Below, one piece after another: positions 2,003 to 34,701 of a stretch of DNA of 34,833 bases (its first letter is position 1; each line of letters starts with the position of its first letter). The stretch is from positions 1 to 34,833 of the IMG/VR virus record IMGVR_UViG_3300021406_000028; one strand, 5' to 3'. This DNA is from a virus. A model generated the notes under the pieces. That model did not search any database and had not been told where the DNA came from. It saw nothing but the letters and a program-made list of their open reading frames with translations. The translations under genes and the position numbers were made by a program.

Positions 2003-2421
2003 AACCCAATTTCAACAGAACTCATTGTAAAAACGGTCACGTATTCACAGAAGATACTAAGTATTTTCATCGCAAAGATAGTGACGGTAATATTTTATAT
2101 AACTATTTCTCTTGTAAAATATGCCGCAAAGAACGGGATTTTTCTATACAGAGTGCTCTTGTGGATGAGCTATATCAGGCTTATGGTAATAAGTGCTCAT
2201 GTTGTGGGGAAACTAATAAATACTTCTTCACCATCGATCATATATTTAACGATGGAAATATAGAACGCCGTGAGTCTGGAAAAGGCAAACACATTTACCG
2301 AAAATTAAGGGAACTGAACTACCCGCAAGATAGATATAGAATCTTATGTTTTAATTGCAACATGGGTAGAGAACGAAATGGGGGAATTTGCCCTCATGTT
2401 TCTGGAGGGAAACAATCGTGA
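1996..2421 (+). CDS. Free-standing HNH homing-type endonuclease
   Basis: The product is 141 residues. An N-terminal zinc-knuckle-like part (C11, H15, C40, C43; HCKNGHVFTED) is followed by an HNH core with C67/C70, the metal-binding D81-H82 in TIDHIFNDGN, and C118/C121 (CFNC). This architecture is typical of small phage HNH nucleases that cut DNA and promote their own spread. The TTG at 1996 is the only start near an AGAGG sequence. It overlaps the stop of the gene before it, and the TGA stop overlaps the GTG of the scaffold-like gene, so the insertion is translationally coupled on both sides. The gene looks AT-richer than its neighbours, which fits recent acquisition. It shares its N-terminal zinc motif with the endonuclease at 10206-10661. 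Confidence 0.85.
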   Translation: MVKPNFNRTHCKNGHVFTEDTKYFHRKDSDGNILYNYFSCKICRKERDFSIQSALVDELYQAYGNKCSCCGETNKYFFTIDHIFNDGNIERRESGKGKHIYRKLRELNYPQDRYRILCFNCNMGRERNGGICPHVSGGKQS

Positions 2422-3332
2422 GCGAACAGCTAATCGAAAAGACATATACGTATCAGCCTACCGATGAAGAAGGCAGACCTATTGGTGGAAAACAAGTAAT
2501 CAAGTACACTACTCAAGATGAGCTAGTGGACAAGCTACGCACGCAGAATACACTTCTAATTCGTAAGCTACGTCAGGAGACAAAGAAAGGCCGTCTTGGT
2601 ATTGGTGAGGATGAAGTAGTTCCCAAGAATGCACAGCGCTTTAGTGATCCTCTGGAATTCAATCCTCGTGAACTTACACAGGACGAGCGGTACGATATTT
2701 CGCGTAGACTACTCGATCCTACAACTTCTGCTGAAGCGGCTTCCGCTCTAGTAGAAGCGCAGCTTGGCGCACCGCTGTCACAAATCGGCAGAACGATGCA
2801 GACCATTCAGCAGGACAACATTAGTCTAAGAGCCAAGGTAGAAGCTAATGCATTCGTCGCGGAGAATCCTGACTATTACAAGTGTCAAGAGAACTTTGAA
2901 GCATTGGCTAGTTGGATTGTACGCTACAATCTTGCTCCTGTCAAGGATAACTTCCAAAAGGCATACGATACGCTTAAGGCGCAAGGTATCCTTATTGAAG
3001 GTGCAGCGTTGCCGCCTGAGCCGGTTGCTCCCGTAGAACCTGTAGTTGTTCCGGTAGAACCCGTTGTGGTTGAACCTGTTCCGGTAGTTCCGGTAGTTCG
3101 CATTCCCACTGGCCTAACTAGGGAAGAAGCATCTGACTCCGGTGTACTAGTGAAAACAGGAAGCGATATAACTTATGAACTTACCGTTGGTGGACAGAAG
3201 AGAGTGCTAACTGGACTGGCAGCAATTAATGCCATGCCGGGAGAAGAGTACAAGCGCCGTCTGCTTACTGACCGTGAATTTGGTAAGAAGGTAGAGAAGT
3301 TGGAAACTGAAGCCAGAAAGCCGAGAGGTTAA
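2418..3332 (+). CDS. Probable scaffolding / capsid assembly protein
   Basis: I start the gene at GTG 2418, eight bases after GGAGGG; a longer reading from 2388 has no ribosome site and lies inside the HNH gene. The product is 304 residues, charged and mostly helical. A Pro/Val/Glu-rich linker at about residues 199-229 (repeats of PVEPVV) precedes a C-terminal part ending in basic residues (KKVEKLETEARKPRG). Scaffolding proteins sit between portal and capsid genes, are charged and helical, and often bind capsid through a basic C-terminal helix; all three features are seen here. The assignment rests on position and composition, not on a recognised family motif. Confidence 0.6.
   Translation: MSEQLIEKTYTYQPTDEEGRPIGGKQVIKYTTQDELVDKLRTQNTLLIRKLRQETKKGRLGIGEDEVVPKNAQRFSDPLEFNPRELTQDERYDISRRLLDPTTSAEAASALVEAQLGAPLSQIGRTMQTIQQDNISLRAKVEANAFVAENPDYYKCQENFEALASWIVRYNLAPVKDNFQKAYDTLKAQGILIEGAALPPEPVAPVEPVVVPVEPVVVEPVPVVPVVRIPTGLTREEASDSGVLVKTGSDITYELTVGGQKRVLTGLAAINAMPGEEYKRRLLTDREFGKKVEKLETEARKPRG
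3010..3105 (+). repeat. Pro-Val-Glu coding repeat in the scaffold-like gene
   Basis: Short in-frame repeats encode units such as EPV, VPVEPVV and VPVV. They form an extended, probably disordered linker. Degenerate codons separate the units, so this looks like an old protein-level repeat, not a recent slippage product. Confidence 0.6.
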
Positions 3333-3333
3333 C

Positions 3334-3783
3334 ATGGTAATCAGAGACTTCGAAGCTAAAGATTTTGACCGCGTAATGCAGATTAACGATGCATCCTTCG
3401 ATGCGCCAGCTACTAGGAAGTTTGTCCTAGATAGTATTACAGATGGCAAAGCTTGGGTAGCTATTGAGGATGACGTAATTGTCGGATTCCTAATCGGCAA
3501 GATGAAGCACAACACACCTTATGTAAATAATATAGCCGTTGATCCTGCCTATCGTGGTAAAGGAATTGCAAAGCTTCTATTTGCAAAGTTTGAAGAATTA
3601 TTTGGAATGAATCAAAAACCTGAGAGCACTATTTTCTGGCTTCAGGTTCAATCGGATAACCCCGCTCAAAAGCTGTATTTCGACTTAGGATACAGAGTTG
3701 GTTGGGTAGACCCGAATTACTATGGATGGGCTAAACATGCGTTATGCATGTATAAAAGTAGCCGTCCACTAGCACAGTTTTAA
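3334..3783 (+). CDS. GNAT-family N-acetyltransferase
   Basis: The product is 149 residues with the complete GNAT order: an N-terminal strand (MVIRDFEAKDFDRV), a middle strand WVAIEDDVIVGFLIG, then motif A with NNIAVDPAYRGKGIAKLLF, where R74-G-K-G-I-A79 is the acetyl-CoA pyrophosphate loop. The C-terminal part QSDNPAQKLYFDLGYR is the usual motif B. Members move an acetyl group from acetyl-CoA to an amine, often a protein N-terminus. It is nested between scaffold-like and capsid genes and starts two bases after the scaffold stop, so it is likely made with them. A virion protein may be its substrate, but that is inference. Confidence 0.88.
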   Translation: MVIRDFEAKDFDRVMQINDASFDAPATRKFVLDSITDGKAWVAIEDDVIVGFLIGKMKHNTPYVNNIAVDPAYRGKGIAKLLFAKFEELFGMNQKPESTIFWLQVQSDNPAQKLYFDLGYRVGWVDPNYYGWAKHALCMYKSSRPLAQF

Positions 3784-3968
3784 GATAGGGCATTCGCTGT
3801 CGGATTACAGTAGAGCCACCAATGAGCGTGAGGCAACCTTAGTTGAAGTCTTAACAAAGGGCATCGAATAGCACAGTCGGATTACTGATGTGAGTAGATG
3901 ACGCATAAGGACATGGATTTCTATTCTGGGAGGAATAGTAGGAATTCCACTAAAAAAGGAAGACTAAC
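3784..3968 (+). promoter_or_regulatory. Structured leader of the capsid gene with two CGGATT-loop hairpins
   Basis: The 185 bases contain no gene. Two related elements 77 bases apart each begin with GGGCAT (3788, 3859) and carry a hairpin with the same six-base loop CGGATT. At 3797-3810 the stem is CTGT/ACAG; at 3874-3887 it is CAGT/ACTG, so the stem sequence changed while pairing was kept. A third hairpin, CTATTC-tgggag-GAATAG (3921-3938), and the palindrome GGAATTCC (3941-3948) precede the ribosome site AAAAAAGGAAG. A related hairpin occurs at 7183-7195. Possible roles are translational operator, mRNA stabiliser or processing site for the most abundant virion protein; none is proven. Confidence 0.6.
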
Positions 3969-5003
3969 ATGGCCGCATACAGTCCATCAAGTAATAGTCA
4001 GTCAAATCTGCCTCAGTCAACGGTACGTTACTACGACAAAAAGTTCCGTGAAAACCTGAAGGCACAAACCCCCTTCGTAGCATGTTCAGAACGTCTGGAC
4101 CTTCCTATGAAGAGTGGTAACCAGTACGAAATGTTCATGTACGTTCCGTTCGCTGCAAACACTACGCAGACAACTGAAGGTACAGTAGGTAGCGGTATCA
4201 GCATTAACGTGCTGACTACTACTGCAACCATCGGTGAATATGCCGACTACGCCAACTTCTCAAGTCTATCTCTTGCTACGGCAATTGACAACACTGTAGA
4301 GAACGTTGCTCGTGAACTTGCATATCGCCTTGGTGAGTCTCTAAGCGCTCTTGTCCGTGCAACTGCTGACGGTGCAAACGCTGTTGACTCTAGCGTTCTG
4401 GTATCTCTAGGTGCAACTTCAACAACTTCATTCACCACTCTGAGCCTTAACCAGATTCGTAACTCTGTTCAGAGCCTAGCTGGTCGTTCGGTTCGTCCGT
4501 TCGATGAAGCTTCAAAGTCTTTCTGCGGTGTAATCCACCCGTTCGCCCTTGGCGACGTGCTTGCTGATAACAGCAACGATTCCCCAATCGACATCCTGAA
4601 GCACACCCCAGTTGGTCTAGCACGTATGGAAGACCTAATCTCTGTTGACCTAACAGAAATGATCGAACTGCCTTCAACCGGTGTTCGTTTCTTCCAGACT
4701 AACCAAGTTACTAGCACTTCGAACTACAAGGGCGTAACCGGTCTAACCGCGCTTCGTACCTACATCTTCGGACGTGACGGTATCTTTAGCATCAAGCTTG
4801 GAGCGCAGGGTGATACCGGCTTCGGCGACGGTGAATGGCAGAACATTAAGTGCAACATTGTGCAGAACGCAGAGCCAACTGTTGCTGATCCTGAAGGTCT
4901 AATCCCCGGATGGACAAGCTATCGTGTTCACTTCACCACATCTCTTGGACCTGATACCACTATCCGTATCCGTGAGATTGATGCAGCTAGCGCCATTAGC
5001 TAA
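3969..5003 (+). CDS. Major capsid protein, N4-gp56 family (HK97 fold)
   Basis: The product is 344 residues, the usual size for N4 gp56-type capsid proteins. It shows recognisable family segments: TVRYYDKKFRENLKAQTPF near the N-terminus, then ATIGEYADYANFSSLSLATA and NTVENVARELAYRLGES, which correspond to the conserved region before the spine helix. The C-terminal third is the expected beta-rich part. It forms the icosahedral shell. The ATG follows AAAAAAGGAAG, preceded by the structured leader and followed by a hairpin at 5010-5040. Codon choice appears more uniform than in neighbours, as expected for a highly expressed gene. No separate decoration protein is obvious, but the next gene is a candidate. 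Confidence 0.9.
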   Translation: MAAYSPSSNSQSNLPQSTVRYYDKKFRENLKAQTPFVACSERLDLPMKSGNQYEMFMYVPFAANTTQTTEGTVGSGISINVLTTTATIGEYADYANFSSLSLATAIDNTVENVARELAYRLGESLSALVRATADGANAVDSSVLVSLGATSTTSFTTLSLNQIRNSVQSLAGRSVRPFDEASKSFCGVIHPFALGDVLADNSNDSPIDILKHTPVGLARMEDLISVDLTEMIELPSTGVRFFQTNQVTSTSNYKGVTGLTALRTYIFGRDGIFSIKLGAQGDTGFGDGEWQNIKCNIVQNAEPTVADPEGLIPGWTSYRVHFTTSLGPDTTIRIREIDAASAIS

Positions 5004-5009
5004 CCAATG

Positions 5010-5040
5010 AGGGGCGTTTAATTATGCCCCTTGTTCTTTG
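5010..5040 (+). terminator. Possible intrinsic terminator after the capsid gene
   Basis: A 7-bp stem (5010-5016 with 5025-5031, AGGGGCG / TGCCCCT, one G-U pair) has an 8-base loop and is followed by TTGTTCTTT. The U-tract is interrupted, so it may end only part of the transcripts and reduce expression downstream of capsid. Confidence 0.6.
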
Positions 5041-5055
5041 GTAAAAAGGAGAAAA

Positions 5056-5577
5056 ATGAGTCTGCTTAATCAAGTTTTCCAAGGGTCGCCCCTTTCATTA
5101 GGTGCTACGGCAGCGGGTGGAAGTCCAATTGCCCCTAACGTCGCCATTGATACAGTCAATAACGTTCTGTATCTAAGTGCCGGAAATGGATGGCAACCCG
5201 GAGTCCCCTCAATGCTACAAAAGGCATTTCTATTGAATCAGTCAGCTAACGTAGCCAACGTGTCAACGTTTGCCGTTCCTGCCAGCCTAGGTGGCCTATA
5301 TAGCGTTGAAATTTATGAAGTATCGTCAAATACCCCAACAGGCGCTACACTGCCTGCGGTAACCGTGACATTTACGGATATTGACCTTGGTACTTCAGTA
5401 ACAAACACTCTTGCATCTGTTGGAAGTGTATCTGCGGCTGGCGTTGTCAACCAAGGTATTCTATATGCAAACGCAAAGGGTGGTACAAACATCGTCGTAG
5501 CAACGACAAGCTATGCTGCCGGTAGCGGAACAGCATTAACCTACAATATCAAGGTTCGTTTTACTTGGTTGGGGTAA
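5056..5577 (+). CDS. Beta-rich virion protein candidate downstream of capsid
   Basis: The ATG at 5056 follows AAGGAG and is preferred over the in-frame TTG at 5038, which lies in the terminator hairpin tail. The product is 173 residues, rich in Ala, Ser, Thr, Val and Gly and poor in charged residues, as seen in beta-sandwich phage surface proteins. I do not recognise the family. Position right after the capsid gene makes a head decoration or head-fibre protein plausible. No signal peptide or membrane segment is present. Confidence 0.7.
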   Translation: MSLLNQVFQGSPLSLGATAAGGSPIAPNVAIDTVNNVLYLSAGNGWQPGVPSMLQKAFLLNQSANVANVSTFAVPASLGGLYSVEIYEVSSNTPTGATLPAVTVTFTDIDLGTSVTNTLASVGSVSAAGVVNQGILYANAKGGTNIVVATTSYAAGSGTALTYNIKVRFTWLG

Positions 5578-5589
5578 TCAGGAGATATA

Positions 5590-6783
5590 ATGGCTAATAT
5601 TCAAGAATCTTATCCTGCACAAACTACCGGTCTTGGTGTAGCTGCTAAGATTGCAGTGCAGGGCAATCTAGGAACAAGTACTAAGCCCGGTTACAACAAC
5701 GTGACCCTTTCAGTGGGCGGAACTAACGGACAGACAACTTTCCAGTTGAACCCACAAATTCAGGATGCTTCAGGTGCAGCTTATGATCCTAGCACAGACA
5801 CCGTATTCGCAATTACCAGTGTCGCCAACTCTTCACCGGGGTCACTGACTCTGACTTCAGTTGCGGCATCTGTAAATGGTGATGCTGTTTACGCTGGTAC
5901 TATCACAAGCGGCGGTTCAAACGCTTTTGTAGGTTTGCTATTTACTGTTGCAGGATTTACCGGTGCTAACAACAATGGTACATTCGTTTGTGTGGCATCA
6001 ACCACACTTGCTCTTACACTGGCTAACGTAGGTGCGACGGCAGAAACTCATGCGGGAACTGCAACTTCGGAAGAAGGAACAGCCGTATACACTGGTACTA
6101 TCGGCGTGAAGGCGAACAGCCTTGTTGGTCAGACATTTGTTATTGCTGGATTCGTAACTAACCCTTCGAATAACGGTACATTCATTTGCACAGCGAACAA
6201 CGGCAGCACCACAATCACTCTTGAGAACAACTTTGCTGTCTCGGAAACTGCTACAGCATCCGCAACTTCTCAGGAATCAAGTGAACCTGTATTCACTCTT
6301 ACATCAGTAGCTACCACAAGCGGTGGTGTAGCAGTTTATACGGGAACCATTGGCGTAGCCGCAAGCAGTCTCGTAGGTAAGACATTCACTGTAACAGGAT
6401 TCGTAACAACTCCTGCAAACAACGGTACGTTCGTAGCTACTGCTAATAACGGCAGCACTACACTTACTCTTGCTAACACGGCGGCTGTTTCGGAAACGCA
6501 CGCAGCTACGGCTACGGGTGTTCCTCTGTCCAACCTGCTGACTTATGTGGCTTACCCCGCAAAGACCCTGACCGGGAATACCTATCAGCCTTCAGGTACA
6601 AGCACAGCAGTTGCTACCGTATCAACGTCCGGTGTAATTACCGCCGTTGCTCCGGGCGGAGTTGAAGTTGAAGTATCGTTCCCGGCGTTTAACAACACAT
6701 CAGGAACCACAGGAAATACATTTGCGGGTAACCTACCTTTGGGTAAGATTTACGCTACCGTGAACGTTCAAGTCCTGCCCTAA
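5590..6783 (+). CDS. Ig-like/beta-repeat virion surface protein
   Basis: The product is 397 residues and starts after CAGGAGATATA. It contains three copies of a 60-70 residue beta module at about residues 95-158, 163-227 and 246-309, each with the order VYtGTI - LVGxTFxxxGFV - NNGTF - TLxL - ETxxATAT. The C-terminal 80 residues (AVATVSTSGVITAVAPGG) look like a bacterial Ig-like group 2 domain, a fold common on phage capsids and tails that can bind host surface sugars. Overall it looks like a surface decoration or fibre-like protein. The same type of module appears once more in the protein at 11369-12670. Confidence 0.7.
   Translation: MANIQESYPAQTTGLGVAAKIAVQGNLGTSTKPGYNNVTLSVGGTNGQTTFQLNPQIQDASGAAYDPSTDTVFAITSVANSSPGSLTLTSVAASVNGDAVYAGTITSGGSNAFVGLLFTVAGFTGANNNGTFVCVASTTLALTLANVGATAETHAGTATSEEGTAVYTGTIGVKANSLVGQTFVIAGFVTNPSNNGTFICTANNGSTTITLENNFAVSETATASATSQESSEPVFTLTSVATTSGGVAVYTGTIGVAASSLVGKTFTVTGFVTTPANNGTFVATANNGSTTLTLANTAAVSETHAATATGVPLSNLLTYVAYPAKTLTGNTYQPSGTSTAVATVSTSGVITAVAPGGVEVEVSFPAFNNTSGTTGNTFAGNLPLGKIYATVNVQVLP
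5872..6515 (+). repeat. Three-copy internal repeat encoding beta modules
   Basis: Copies lie at about 5872-6063, 6076-6270 and 6325-6515. Copies 2 and 3 are the closest pair, sharing long near-identical stretches such as those encoding NNGSTT and SLVG; copy 1 is more diverged. This suggests stepwise duplication inside the gene. Confidence 0.75.
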
Positions 6784-6808
6784 GCAGTAATACTTTGAGG
6801 AGGGTATT

Positions 6809-7129
6809 ATGGCGGAATGGAATGATGATAACGAGCGAGAACTTGTTATCAAGAACCACAATCGAGTACTACGGAGGGTGAATAAAGCCCTTCGTAGTTC
6901 TCACCGAATTACACAAGAGTATAATGATACTCTATTTAAAGAACTATGTCATGCAGACAAGAATCAAGAGGCTGCATTGGCCCTGCGGAGACTCTGGGAA
7001 GAAGGCGGGTTTCAACCTCCCTGTAGTCCAGAGGATTATGACACCATAATCGATGTGTCCATACGAGCGTTGAAAGCCTATCGTGACACGGCTACTAAGC
7101 CAACCCAGAGCCAATATTTCTTTGATTAA
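6809..7129 (+). CDS. Small charged helical protein, unknown
   Basis: The product is 106 residues, hydrophilic and helical, starting after GAGGAGGG. I do not recognise it. It is the last gene before a strong terminator, so it closes the capsid transcription unit. Size and position allow a head-completion or head-tail joining role, but nothing in the sequence proves one. Confidence 0.7.
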   Translation: MAEWNDDNERELVIKNHNRVLRRVNKALRSSHRITQEYNDTLFKELCHADKNQEAALALRRLWEEGGFQPPCSPEDYDTIIDVSIRALKAYRDTATKPTQSQYFFD

Positions 7130-7134
7130 CCATC

Positions 7135-7160
7135 GCGGCCCTTGTGGCCGCACCTTTTTT
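7135..7160 (+). terminator. Intrinsic terminator closing the head operon
   Basis: GCGGCC (7135-7140), loop CTTGT, GGCCGC (7146-7151), then ACC and six T (7155-7160). The stem is perfect and GC-only; this is the clearest terminator in the window. Confidence 0.9.
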
Positions 7161-7325
7161 GTTGTATGGGTAAACGTAAATAGGGTGGATTACCCGAAGT
7201 TACTCAATAACTATACGACTACATCTCTTTCTGTCAGGTGTGTACAGCCGGGTAAAGAGACTCCCACCTTATGAGTGTTATAGACTTCGTTTGGATGGGA
7301 GACATGTTTTTAGGAGAGGAGCCTA
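7161..7325 (+). promoter_or_regulatory. Structured leader of the tail operon with a GGATT-loop hairpin
   Basis: The stretch has no convincing gene. GGGT-GGATT-ACCC (7183-7195) resembles the two hairpins ahead of the capsid gene. A second structure pairs TCTCTTT (7224-7230) with AAAGAGA (7254-7260) around CTGT/ACAG (7231-7234/7244-7247). A third pairs CTCCCA (7261-7266) with TGGGAG (7296-7301). The ribosome site GGAGAGGAG and the ATG at 7326 follow. Because a terminator lies immediately upstream, a promoter is expected here, but I see no good sigma-70 hexamer pair. Confidence 0.5.
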
Positions 7326-7985
7326 ATGACACAGCCTACAATGCAGGAAATACAAGCGGCACAGGGAACGCGTTTAAGCGAAACTGCCCCTTGGGAGTCT
7401 TATGAAAAGGAACTAGTTGGCCGTCAGGTAACCCCTGAACTGGCCGCGCAGATCGCGGATTACGCTAACAAGAGACATCAAGACGCGCCTGTAAGTTCCC
7501 AGACTAAAGAACTACTAGCTGAGAACCAAGAAATCAATGAAGGCATCGCCAGTCAGTATCAATGGCTCCAACCCGGTGACTATGCCGATGTGGAAGCTAG
7601 AATCGGCAAGGTAATGTCACATGCTGAGTTTATTACTAAACTTAGACAGGCCGGAGTATCCTGCCATTATAGACAACATCCACATGCGGATAAAGTTACA
7701 CTATTGTATACAAAACTTGGTGTAGCCGAGCCGGAAATAGCATGTTGGGCGCAATACGGACAAATGCCGGAACTGTCCATTATGAACTTTGACCAGTACG
7801 GTGCGCCTCTAGCAGAACGTCGCAGAGGGTGGCGTACATGTTTGCTTCAGATCATTCTTAAAGGAATTCTGACTGAGGAAAAAGCAAACGAAGTATTTGG
7901 AAGGCCCGGTCAAGGCAAAGCTTTTGCCAGATACAATTCAACACTACAGGCATTCAGAAACGCAGGTAGTAGTTTAGGTGAATAG
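7326..7985 (+). CDS. Unknown protein, first gene of the tail operon
   Basis: The product is 219 residues with no membrane segment. The middle (residues 100-160) contains HYRQHP and the run LGVAEPEIACWAQYGQMPEL; the C-terminal 50 residues are helical. I cannot assign a family. It starts after GGAGAGGAG and is followed ten bases later by another unknown gene with which it may act. Its place between head and adaptor genes suggests a virion or assembly protein. Confidence 0.7.
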   Translation: MTQPTMQEIQAAQGTRLSETAPWESYEKELVGRQVTPELAAQIADYANKRHQDAPVSSQTKELLAENQEINEGIASQYQWLQPGDYADVEARIGKVMSHAEFITKLRQAGVSCHYRQHPHADKVTLLYTKLGVAEPEIACWAQYGQMPELSIMNFDQYGAPLAERRRGWRTCLLQIILKGILTEEKANEVFGRPGQGKAFARYNSTLQAFRNAGSSLGE

Positions 7986-32754: not shown

Positions 32755-32829
32755 GGGGTATTCTGCCAGCGGTTAGGCAACTGGACCTTCACTCCAGGAA
32801 CCAGAGTTCGAATCTCTGATGCCCCACCA
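32755..32829 (+). tRNA. tRNA-Glu (TTC)
   Basis: The acceptor GGGGTAT/ATGCCCC, D-arm TGCC/GGCA, anticodon arm CTGGA-CCTTCAC-TCCAG and T-arm CAGAG-TTCGAAT-CTCTG are all fully paired. The anticodon TTC is at 32788-32790 and CCA is encoded. Position 33, before the anticodon, is C and not the nearly invariant T. Confidence 0.92.
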
Positions 32830-32889
32830 AGTCGGTGTCAAGTAAAACTATCGGGGTCTTGCGAAAACATCCGAGCCGAGAAAGGAAAC

Positions 32890-33054
32890 ATGGAATCTAC
32901 TAGAGCAGCGCGAGTTGAACAGCGTAGGATTCTCGGGGAGTACTACCGGGACTTGGCAACTAACTATGATGAATACCACAAGCTGGCGAAGGAGATTGGT
33001 CCAACGCTTGCATGGCCTAGTAAGCCAAATGTACCGGAGTTTGAAAATGCTTAA
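32890..33054 (+). CDS. 54-residue helical protein between tRNAs
   Basis: The ATG follows AAAGGAAAC. The product is MESTRAARVEQRRILGEYYR, then DLATNYDEYHKLAKEIG and a Pro-rich end (WPSKPNVPEFENA). It looks like a small charged helical hairpin. Its end overlaps the start of the next gene by eight bases. Family not recognised; coding potential is supported by the ribosome site and coupling. Confidence 0.65.
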   Translation: MESTRAARVEQRRILGEYYRDLATNYDEYHKLAKEIGPTLAWPSKPNVPEFENA

Positions 33055-33169
33055 ATGGTTACAAGAACATCACTGGATTCATACGTGGAGTAGATGGCAG
33101 GAATGGGGAATTACTTACAACAAGAGAACTTGCAGCGTATGTGGCATAAGTGAAGTTATCAGCATGTAA
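33047..33169 (+). CDS. 40-residue Trp-rich CxxC protein
   Basis: I choose ATG 33047, seven bases after CCGGAG and overlapping the previous gene; a longer frame from 32915 is the shadow of that gene. The product is MLKWLQEHHWIHTWSRWQEW, then GITYNKRTCSVCGISEVISM. The H-x-W..W and C-S-V-C-G pair look like a half zinc ribbon, similar to tiny phage proteins of unknown role. It ends three bases before tRNA-Gln. Confidence 0.65.
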   Translation: MLKWLQEHHWIHTWSRWQEWGITYNKRTCSVCGISEVISM

Positions 33170-33172
33170 AAC

Positions 33173-33246
33173 ACCCATTTCGTTTAGTGGTAGGACCGCT
33201 GACTCTGACTCAGCAGGCCGATGTTCGATTCATCGCGTGGGTGCCA
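33173..33246 (+). tRNA. tRNA-Gln (CTG)
   Basis: The acceptor ACCCATT/CGTGGGT has a T-C mismatch at its base. D-arm GTTT/GGAC, anticodon arm GCTGA-CTCTGAC-TCAGC with anticodon CTG at 33205-33207, and T-arm CGATG-TTCGATT-CATCG. Discriminator G and encoded CCA. The weak A1-U72 pair and G73 fit glutamine identity. Confidence 0.9.
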
Positions 33247-33257
33247 AGAAAGGTTAT

Positions 33258-33623
33258 ATGAACTGGAAGGAATGGAAAGCACAACCGGGCCATTTCTGTG
33301 CACAGGTCACGAGTCCTGATACCTGTTGTCCATTGGGGCATAATGAGAAGGACGAACGTTTCTGTACATGTAAAGTAAGCCGCGAAATGGCAAAAGCGGT
33401 ACGTCAGTTTCAGCATGAGTTATATCTAGAGACATACAGACAGTTTGATGAAGTAGAACGTAAATTCATCCTACGCAATCATAGGTCGTATTTGGTACCG
33501 GAGAGTAAAATTGGCCCATACACACGGGTTGACTGTAGATTAAGACGTGGGTCAGCACAGATTAAAGATGACGGTACTTGTAAGATGTGCGGTGAGAAAG
33601 TTGATTGGGTATGCGAAGACTAG
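33258..33623 (+). CDS. 121-residue Cys-rich protein, unknown
   Basis: The ATG at 33258 follows AGAAAGG; earlier in-frame starts lie inside tRNA-Gln and are rejected. The N-terminal half has WKEWKAQPGHFCAQV, DTCCPLGHNEKDERFCTCKV (several Cys and His), the middle is a charged helix, and the end has CKMCGEKVDWVCED. Two metal-binding clusters flank a helical core. I do not recognise the family. Its place inside a tRNA cluster could suggest an RNA-linked role, but that is only context. Confidence 0.7.
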   Translation: MNWKEWKAQPGHFCAQVTSPDTCCPLGHNEKDERFCTCKVSREMAKAVRQFQHELYLETYRQFDEVERKFILRNHRSYLVPESKIGPYTRVDCRLRRGSAQIKDDGTCKMCGEKVDWVCED

Positions 33624-33628
33624 GCGCA

Positions 33629-33832
33629 ATGGACCATGACGAGTGCGCCCCGTGGTGTGACCACAATCCGGCCAATCATGCACCGGACTGTGATGATTCA
33701 TTATGTGATGGAGATAGATGTCAACCGGGCCAGAATGACCAATGCTTCGGTAAAGGCAAAGACAATGTTCGTGGCTGTAGATGTAAGTTAGTTTTCACAA
33801 TGTTGTGGAATACACGCCACATGAAGTTTTAA
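33629..33832 (+). CDS. 67-residue protein with eight cysteines
   Basis: I prefer ATG 33629, six bases after AGG and after the previous stop at 33623; ATG 33611 is an alternative adding six residues. The product starts MDHDECAPWCDHNPANHAPD, with Cys at 6, 10, 21, 26, 31, 39, 50 and 52 and nearby His and Asp. This density suggests bound zinc or a disulfide-rich fold. No signal peptide is present. It ends directly before tRNA-Gln(TTG). Function unknown. Confidence 0.6.
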   Translation: MDHDECAPWCDHNPANHAPDCDDSLCDGDRCQPGQNDQCFGKGKDNVRGCRCKLVFTMLWNTRHMKF

Positions 33833-33833
33833 C

Positions 33834-33907
33834 ACGGGGTTCGTTCAATGGTAGGACGGTTGGCTTTGACCCAACAGACCGAGGATCGATACCTTGCCCC
33901 CGTGCCA
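33834..33907 (+). tRNA. tRNA-Gln (TTG)
   Basis: The acceptor ACGGGGT/CCCCCGT has a T-C mismatch at its base, as in the other Gln tRNA. D-arm GTTC/GGAC, anticodon arm GTTGG-CTTTGAC-CCAAC with anticodon TTG at 33866-33868, T-arm CGAGG/CCTTG. The T-loop is ATCGATA, so position 54 is A and not T. Discriminator G and CCA are encoded. Confidence 0.88.
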
Positions 33908-33912
33908 AATTA

Positions 33913-33988
33913 GGGGATATGGTCTAATGGTGATGATGCCATCTTGTCAAGGTGAAAGGTGCGGGTTCGAATCCCGCTATTCCCGCCA
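33913..33988 (+). tRNA. tRNA-Asp (GTC)
   Basis: The acceptor GGGGATA/TATTCCC is fully paired (one G-U), with T-arm GCGGG-TTCGAAT-CCCGC and discriminator G plus CCA. The anticodon arm CCATC-TTGTCAA-GGTGA has one C-A mismatch and anticodon GTC at 33946-33948. The D-stem is weak. Confidence 0.9.
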
Positions 33989-34001
33989 ATAGAAGGTGAG
34001 T

Positions 34002-34178
34002 ATGGATTGGATTTTACTTGCACCGCAGTATCACGCAATTATATTAGTGCTAGTACTTATGGCACTCACTATGATCTTTAGGATATATAGGAAAGTCTGT
34101 AAGGAGGAGTATGAAGCAGTTACTATTTTCGTTAACCGCCAAAGACTTCGAATTTCAAACCTTCTGTACCGGAGGTAA
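34002..34178 (+). CDS. 58-residue single-pass membrane protein
   Basis: The ATG at 34002 follows AGAAGGTGAG; a GTG six bases earlier is less likely. A membrane helix at about 12-30 (AIILVLVLMALTMIFRIYRK) is followed by a charged cytoplasmic tail. It overlaps the GGQ-protein gene by 68 bases, so the last third of its coding is shared with the start of that gene. Function unknown; a regulatory or membrane-targeting role cannot be judged. Confidence 0.55.
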   Translation: MDWILLAPQYHAIILVLVLMALTMIFRIYRKVCKEEYEAVTIFVNRQRLRISNLLYRR

Positions 34179-34479
34179 CGGTGGACAGCATCGAAACGCT
34201 AAACAAAATGGTGTACGATGCATTCACACTGCTTCAGGCGCAGTCGGGGAACATAGAGACGGACGTGAGCAGTATAAGAATAGACAAGAGGCGTTCCGTA
34301 AATGCTGCGAATCAGATAAGTTTCGAGCGTGGCATAAGCTGGAGACTATGCGAAGATTGGGCCAACTTGACGGCATCGATTCTAGAGTAGACGCCATGAT
34401 GCAGGAACAGAATTTGAAAGTAGAGTACTTTGCTACTCCTGAAGAACGTCGCAATATGAAAGGCATACACGGGAGTTAA
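34111..34479 (+). CDS. Stand-alone RF-1 domain (GGQ) protein, release-factor-like
   Basis: The product is 122 residues, starting after AAGGAGGAGT. The catalytic GGQ of class I release factors is at residues 24-26 in the context TFCTGGNGGQHRNAKQNGVR, followed by IHTASGAVGEHRDGREQYKN, the usual RF-1 domain pattern. The domains that read stop codons are missing, as in ArfB/ICT1-type rescue factors and short phage homologues. It would hydrolyse peptidyl-tRNA on the ribosome. Its C-terminal tail (EERRNMKGIHGS) is not the long basic tail of ArfB. The gene ends one base before tRNA-Gly, inside a tRNA cluster. Confidence 0.9.
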   Translation: MKQLLFSLTAKDFEFQTFCTGGNGGQHRNAKQNGVRCIHTASGAVGEHRDGREQYKNRQEAFRKCCESDKFRAWHKLETMRRLGQLDGIDSRVDAMMQEQNLKVEYFATPEERRNMKGIHGS

Positions 34480-34555
34480 GCGGGATTAGTGTTTAATAGC
34501 AGCATACGTGGCTTCCACCCACTAGGTAAGAGTGCAACTCTCTTATTCCGCTCCA
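34480..34555 (+). tRNA. tRNA-Gly (TCC)
   Basis: The acceptor GCGGGAT/ATTCCGC (one G-U), D-arm GTGT/GCAT, anticodon loop CTTCCAC with anticodon TCC at 34514-34516, and T-arm AAGAG/CTCTT are paired; the anticodon stem has a C-T mismatch at its base. Discriminator T fits glycine, and CCA is encoded. The T-loop TGCAACT has G at position 55. It begins at the base after the stop of the GGQ gene. Confidence 0.85.
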
Positions 34556-34619
34556 GTTTTCCTACGCCTTAGATGCACCTACTAATAGGCGTTTGTAGGC
34601 AATGGGGTGCAATACTTGT
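34556..34619 (+). other. Structured spacer between tRNA-Gly and tRNA-Cys
   Basis: CCTACGCCT (34561-34569) pairs with AGGCGT...GTAGG (34586-34598, with a two-base bulge). A competing pairing is TGCACC (34574-34579) with GGTGCA (34606-34611). It is neither a tRNA nor a gene and may be a processing site or a remnant. Confidence 0.45.
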
Positions 34620-34701
34620 CTACCTATGGCGAAGTGGTTCAACGCGGGTGGCTGCAACCCACCTATATATATCAGGGGTTCGAATCCCTTTGGGTAGTCC
34701 A
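34620..34701 (+). tRNA. tRNA-Cys (GCA)
   Basis: The acceptor CTACCTA/TGGGTAG (one G-U), anticodon arm GGTGG-CTGCAAC-CCACC with anticodon GCA at 34654-34656, and T-arm AGGGG-TTCGAAT-CCCTT are paired. Discriminator T fits cysteine identity; CCA is encoded. The variable loop (34664-34673, TATATATATC) is longer than usual for this class. Confidence 0.92.

Follow-up and report, generated by a model that had tools for sequence, protein, structure and literature searches.

The DNA analysed here, called the window throughout, is a virus record of 34,833 nucleotides (34.8 kb) from a clade of tailed phages of soil Acidobacteria with genomes of roughly 90–99 kb. Its closest cultured relative is the 97.6-kb podovirus Tunturiibacter phage Tunturi_3 (PMC11924767), for which the host is Tunturiibacter psychrotolerans. 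When IMG/VR was scanned with the capsid protein, 208 stretches were confirmed as related, and 80 of these were retained. In the window, a portal gene is followed by a gene in the scaffold position (2388–3332), an acetyltransferase gene (3334–3783), and the major capsid protein gene (3969–5003). Three more genes, a terminator (7135–7151), and a tail operon that begins at 7326 come after the capsid gene. The features under study, all on the plus strand, are as follows:

3788–3916 (+), capsid-leader RNA, whole element (covariance model R1), about 129 nt, pseudoknotted, ahead of the major capsid gene
3789–3818 (+), P1: short outer helix, internal loop AUUCG/UAGA, inner helix, and hexaloop CGGAUU
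3826–3904 (+), P2: GCGU (3826–3829) paired with ACGC (3901–3904), closing a three-way junction
3837–3860 (+), P3 hairpin, variable in sequence, with the loop GAAGUCUU (3845–3852)
3862–3900 (+), P4: outer helix CAUC/GAUG (3862–3865 with 3897–3900) and hexaloop CGGAUU
3848–3912 (+), pseudoknot: GUCUU of the P3 loop (3848–3852) with AGGAC (3908–3912), just 3' of P2
3921–3938 (+), hairpin with an upstream Shine-Dalgarno-like GGGAGGA in its loop and stem (CUAUUC-UGGGAG-GAAUAG)
3969–5003 (+), major capsid protein gene (PHROG 1357, major head protein, E = 1.8e-17), the gene that the capsid-leader RNA precedes
7135–7160 (+), intrinsic terminator, abutting the tail-leader RNA
7161–7301 (+), tail-leader RNA: P1, P2 (7224–7260), and P3 (7261–7301) of the minimum-energy fold, ahead of the tail operon
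7310–7326 (+), hairpin with the Shine-Dalgarno sequence of the first tail gene in its loop (UUAGG-AGAGGAG-CCUAA), similar in relatives
7326–7985 (+), opening gene of the tail operon, preceded by the tail-leader RNA, without a family match

Elsewhere in the window, five tRNA genes are clustered at the right end (32755–34698), and the gene at 5590–6783 contains diverged internal repeats (5884–6497, with 168-nt copies at 6081 and 6330 that are 70% alike), which suggest repeated domains of a structural protein. In many relatives, the capsid gene is split after about 23–53 or 110 codons by inserts with apparent group I intron ends and HNH-type ORFs (L037, L052, L053, L055, L068, L076, L081, and L098); Rfam gave no intron match in these eight loci, and the insert type is thus a candidate assignment.

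Hairpins ahead of the capsid and tail genes

The initial annotation of the window described three hairpins with a common (C)GGATT loop, and these are present as CTGTCGGATTACAG (3797–3810), CAGTCGGATTACTG (3874–3887), and GGGTGGATTACCC (7183–7195). The first two occupy the capsid leader, between the end of the acetyltransferase gene (3783) and the start of the capsid gene (3969); the third follows the strong intrinsic terminator (7135–7151) and precedes the first gene of the tail operon (7326). Within the window, the exact 10-mer GTCGGATTAC is confined to the capsid-leader pair, with one copy in each hairpin. Across 13 genomes or records of the clade, it has 23 matches, nearly all at hairpin sites, versus one match of the reversed control, and GGTGGATTACC has 10 matches versus one in clade genomes and records. 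The whole genome of Tunturi_3 contains two GTCGGATTAC hairpins ahead of the major head gene, as in the window, and one GTGGATTAC hairpin (GGTGGATTACC) before the tail genes, together with one extra match that lies on the opposite strand and forms no hairpin.

Many other relatives carry two pre-capsid hairpins with differing, complementary stems. A scan of IMG/VR contigs for the tandem pattern found 52 contigs, in 51 of which both copies are stemmed; the capsid gene lies directly downstream in 49, and the remaining three contigs end within 70 nt. Relatives thus carry the hairpins at the same sites, their pairs covary, and the (C)GGATT loop is conserved, which rejects a chance origin and strongly supports the view put forward in the annotation that a selected structure stands ahead of both structural operons. 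Most single matches of CAGTCGGATTACTG in viral contigs, being scattered and mostly coding-looking, were taken as chance occurrences.

Other details of the initial description require amendment. The inner G-C pair of the stems, held to be invariant, is A-U in relatives L164, L069, and L070. GGGCAT does precede both capsid-leader hairpins, as had been pointed out, but it is not a motif, and neither copy is conserved. The first forms the 5' side of the outer helix of P1, whereas the second spans the end of P3 and the start of P4.

Two structured RNAs and their relatives

Comparison of sequences indicates that two larger structured RNAs underlie the three hairpins, which are only their tips. In the capsid-leader RNA, the first hairpin is the inner helix of P1 (CUGU/ACAG, 3797–3800 with 3807–3810) and the second is the inner helix of P4 (CAGU/ACUG, 3874–3877 with 3884–3887), which is separated from the outer P4 helix by the internal loop GAA/AGUA (3866–3868/3893–3896). 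P2 and P3 are joined by a conserved GUGAGG. The Shine-Dalgarno-like hairpin that follows the element is found, as UCUGGGAGGAGA, in most relatives of the intergenic type.

The first alignment comprised 13 relatives and was made with MAFFT from sequence alone, independently of the structure. Standard pairs account for 94.7% of its base-pair cells, and 14 pairs show two-sided changes compared with 6.5 after shuffling (0 of 500 shuffles as high) and at most 6 in slid controls. Two-sided changes occur in six of the nine pairs of P3 and in all four pairs of the outer P4 helix. A search with R1 yielded 64 hits (46 distinct) at E ≤ 1, among which the window copy scores 137 bits (E = 5e-26; it is itself one of the sequences from which the model was built). 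In the 46 distinct relatives, 92.8% of the cells are paired, 27 of the 28 pairs have two-sided changes, and covariation is 0.64 versus 0.19, although this alignment was fitted to R1 and is biased toward the model, a bias of which the 13-relative alignment is free. The loop U[CGGAUU]A is kept in 43 of the 46 relatives in P4 and in 36 in P1.

To evaluate the pseudoknot, the loops and tails of 37 phages were re-dealt among them 2000 times. The observed score is 10.3, compared with 9.23 (sd 0.27) in the re-dealt sets, none of which scored as high; the partners differ among phages (ACUCUU/AAGAGU, AGUCC/GGACU, GUCUU/AAGAC, and CCCU/AGGG). Folding of the window capsid RNA as a single sequence returns the same helices with unremarkable stability (z = -0.56), and for this reason the case for the RNA rests on comparison. 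Exactly one match to the capsid RNA is present in 11 of 12 large contigs. In Tunturi_3, R1 found nothing at E ≤ 0.001 when run over the entire record, and the match at the capsid locus is weak (E = 0.065), R1 having been derived from the other sub-family; the assignment of Tunturi_3 is therefore carried by its two loops and the layout.

The third hairpin caps P1, the first arm of the tail-leader RNA, with an outer helix at 7161–7169/7211–7219, a middle helix at 7176–7179/7200–7203, and the apex GGGU-GGAUU-ACCC at 7183–7195. An alignment of 11 phages of the sister sub-clade (A3), made by sequence alone, has 89% paired cells, two-sided changes in 23 of 28 pairs (13.9 when shuffled), and covariation of 0.67 versus 0.24; GTGGATTAC, by which the members were selected, is invariant in it. 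In this sub-clade, P2 ends in a CGGCCA-type loop and is followed by P3. A GUGUC/GACAC pseudoknot, considered for the tail RNA on the basis of some members, is inconsistent across members and is not claimed. Relative L029 has AGGU-CGGAUU-ACCU at the position of the tail-leader hairpin. The third hairpin thus tips a separate tail RNA, so that two different RNAs, of head and tail, bear one loop.

The annotation had left open whether the selected structure is RNA or single-stranded DNA. G-U exceeds A-C among wobble cells in the capsid RNA (72 versus 27) and in the tail RNA (26 versus 9), which indicates an RNA in mRNA sense and speaks against single-stranded DNA.

The terminator at the border between capsid and tail genes is found in four of five members of the window's sub-clade and is absent elsewhere (4 of 23 tail leaders checked); a universal border terminator is accordingly rejected. 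In several other members, P1 of the tail RNA is followed by a U-run. No promoter-like site was found on the plus strand at 6926–7575, an interval that includes the stretch from the border terminator to the tail gene. Shine-Dalgarno sequences also lie in the loops of perfect hairpins elsewhere (window 6809 and 7995; Tunturi_3 8550 and 33005), at a minority of genes, with the longest stems reaching 10 bp (GTAATACTTT-GAGG-AGGGTATTAT at window 6809).

The phages that lack the intergenic RNA group as a single clade in the capsid-protein tree, next to L069 and L070 (read without row L024, which was misread in frame). These phages have no acetyltransferase gene. In them, the gene that immediately precedes the capsid gene contains hairpins with (N)GGATT hexaloops, located roughly -390 to -440 and -280 to -325 relative to the capsid start; their stems measure 4–11 bp (e.g. 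CTTCGTTCAGC-CGGATT-GCTGAATGAAG). When synonymous codons were permuted within each gene, 1.0 such hairpins were expected (sd 0.9, maximum 4) and 35 were observed, a count inflated by shared ancestry even though the stems differ between phages. The two embedded hairpins of L029 each contain the exact 10-mer, translated in one frame as P-V-G-L-L and in another as V-S-R-I-T, with the piece GCGUGAGG between them, an arrangement shared with the intergenic form. R1 matches the embedded form at E = 0.006–0.9 across the set, at 8e-4 for L020, and at 6e-4 for L029 as a single genome. The embedded form consists of twin hairpins; a full junction with pseudoknot is at most a candidate there.

Possible modes of action

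Both RNAs are folded and conserved, both display (C)GGAUU as the loop of a short helix, and they precede the capsid and tail operons. On balance, we favour the view that the hairpins are docking tips, for a protein or for RNA polymerase, of two cis-acting mRNA elements in the capsid and tail leaders. Both elements would be part of the late structural transcript, and one trans-acting factor, of the phage or of the host, may read the identical loops and thereby place capsid and tail under joint control. The factor would act on the nascent or full-length transcript, by way of elongation, put-like antitermination, or protection or processing of the mRNA. Action on the transcript rather than by covering a ribosome site is suggested because the embedded hairpins lie 280–440 nt upstream of the capsid start, inside a translated gene. 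Two points weigh against this explanation: translating ribosomes would disrupt the embedded form, and the intergenic RNA, which ends 17–81 nt from the capsid start, is followed by Shine-Dalgarno hairpins, so that translational control would fit as well.

Control of elongation in particular is a tentative proposal. It is favoured by the terminator that immediately precedes the tail RNA in the sub-clade of the window, by the finding of no promoter-like site before the tail gene, and by the U-run of several other members, and disfavoured by the scarcity of the border terminator among tail leaders. We regard as a more speculative proposal still that twin GGAUU hairpins on a pseudoknotted three-way junction represent a new class of nascent-RNA control, which would carry transcription through the capsid–tail border of the late operon, the hairpins loading a factor on the host RNA polymerase or acting on it directly. 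If this were true, selection would have been strong enough to place the hairpins in a protein-coding gene once the leader was lost.

A translational operator or riboswitch is a possible, though rather doubtful, alternative. The pseudoknotted RNA would be the sensor and the Shine-Dalgarno hairpins the switch for translation of capsid and tail genes, with a phage protein (e.g. excess structural protein) or a small molecule as ligand. The short distance of the intergenic RNAs to the capsid start and the Shine-Dalgarno hairpins in the start region are consistent with such a role, as are the pseudoknot strand of L069 and L070, which is 17 nt from the start codon, and the riboswitch-like build of a three-way junction with a pseudoknot. 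Precedents exist in the pseudoknot operator of T4 gene 32 and the hairpin-loop operators of RB69 and T4 gene 43 (PMC3014915). The distant position of the hairpins in the embedded sub-clade, within a translated gene, argues against it, and Shine-Dalgarno hairpins are found also at genes that lack this RNA.

It is unlikely that the RNAs serve processing or stability, whereby an endoribonuclease or a protector would bind the GGAUU loops and set the ratios of scaffold-like, capsid, and tail mRNAs. Such a mechanism would work equally from a coding or an intergenic position, and T4 RegB cleaves within GGAG/U (PMC3014915). Conservation of hexaloop, helices, and pseudoknot alike, however, exceeds the needs of a cut site, and no RegB family member was matched in four phages of the clade, in a search that is uninformative for want of a working positive control.

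We give little credence to a trans-acting or packaged RNA, or to a DNA hairpin that serves as a promoter, replication site, or packaging site. Structured RNA in the head-gene region of a phage would suit the former, but the elements are always in cis, immediately ahead of capsid and tail genes, and the RNA-sense wobble bias, the several helices and internal loops, and the pseudoknot speak against DNA. The hairpin promoter that the initial annotation had offered as one function loses ground on three counts: the absence of a promoter-like site at 6926–7575, the embedding of the hairpins in multi-helix RNAs, and their position within coding sequence in one clade. The other two functions offered there, a protein-binding operator and an RNase site, stay candidates. 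Hairpin promoters of the N4 type are DNA hairpins with a stem of 5–7 bp and a loop of three bases; they were rejected on account of the loop of five or six bases found here, the RNA-sense wobble bias, and the multi-helix context.

Recruitment of host CsrA by the loop GGA (a CsrA/RsmA-type system) is very improbable: GGA is apical and each RNA has two sites, but the CsrA consensus has A two bases before GGA, a position occupied by U in most P1 loops and in nearly all P4 loops and never by A in the hexaloop forms, while conservation reaches well past GGA and no CsrA is encoded in Tunturi_3.

Significance and known systems

Most known regulatory RNAs of tailed phages come from a small number of Escherichia coli phages. 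Here, two covariation-supported RNAs with one loop precede capsid and tail genes throughout a clade of soil phages. The capsid RNA resides in the leader or in coding sequence, and in the latter case selection acts on RNA structure in addition to protein sequence. With a phage and host in culture (Tunturi_3 and Tunturiibacter psychrotolerans), the balance of head and tail production is directly testable, and the fixed loop is a ready bait for the putative factor.

As far as Rfam and the open-licence literature reach, both RNAs are undescribed. Rfam 15 matched only tRNAs in the whole window at gathering thresholds, nothing in the interval 3700–7400 at E up to 10, and nothing relevant in five relatives; no description of these RNAs was found in open-licence papers.

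Proteobacterial REP-like repeats of the form GTCGGATTAC...TAATCCGAC share the 10-mer and can be tandem, and the tandem pattern picks them up in bacterial genomes, where they were rejected as homologues. They are unrelated to the phage RNAs, since their 10-mer pairs with an inverted TAATCCGAC copy rather than looping on itself (111 of 138 hits). They are abundant in tandem in L232–L311 (e.g. Marinimicrobium alkaliphilum and Marinobacter), and the shared 10-mer is coincidental.

The coat-protein operator of MS2 depends on the tetraloop AUUA, carried by G-C pairs with a bulged A. The stretch GGAUUACC, and with it GGATTACCC at window 7187–7195, resembles the loop region of the wild-type operator. 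In the phage RNAs described here, covariation fixes a hexaloop CGGAUU or a pentaloop GGAUU closed by U-A, and no RNA phage is involved; the likeness was judged a coincidence because the conserved loop is of a different size.

The operators of T4 and RB69 (the gene 32 pseudoknot and the gene 43 hairpin loop) are located at the ribosome-binding site of an autoregulated gene (PMC3014915). They resemble the present RNAs in being a conserved pseudoknot or a fixed-loop hairpin in a phage mRNA leader, and differ in that two distinct RNAs here share a loop before capsid and tail genes and that one sub-clade has the hairpins embedded in coding sequence. The position of a T4-type operator is a loose fit for the intergenic forms, 17–81 nt away, and a misfit for the embedded sub-clade.

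The put RNA of phage HK022 is about 70 nt long, comprises two adjacent stem-loops, is located in early operons, and requires no protein factor (PMC9378689). Like the RNAs described here, putL and putR are cis-acting phage RNAs with two stem-loops, present at two places per genome in long phage operons. The capsid-leader RNA, in contrast, has about 129 nt, a three-way junction, and a pseudoknot, and belongs to late structural operons; it thus falls outside put in size and build. Suppression of termination by put proceeds through the zinc-binding domain of the RNA polymerase beta-prime subunit, at which the sole hint here is the terminator by the tail RNA. In our analysis, both RNAs would belong to a known kind, that of cis-acting structured RNAs in phage transcripts, and may at most be put-like or T4-operator-like in action.
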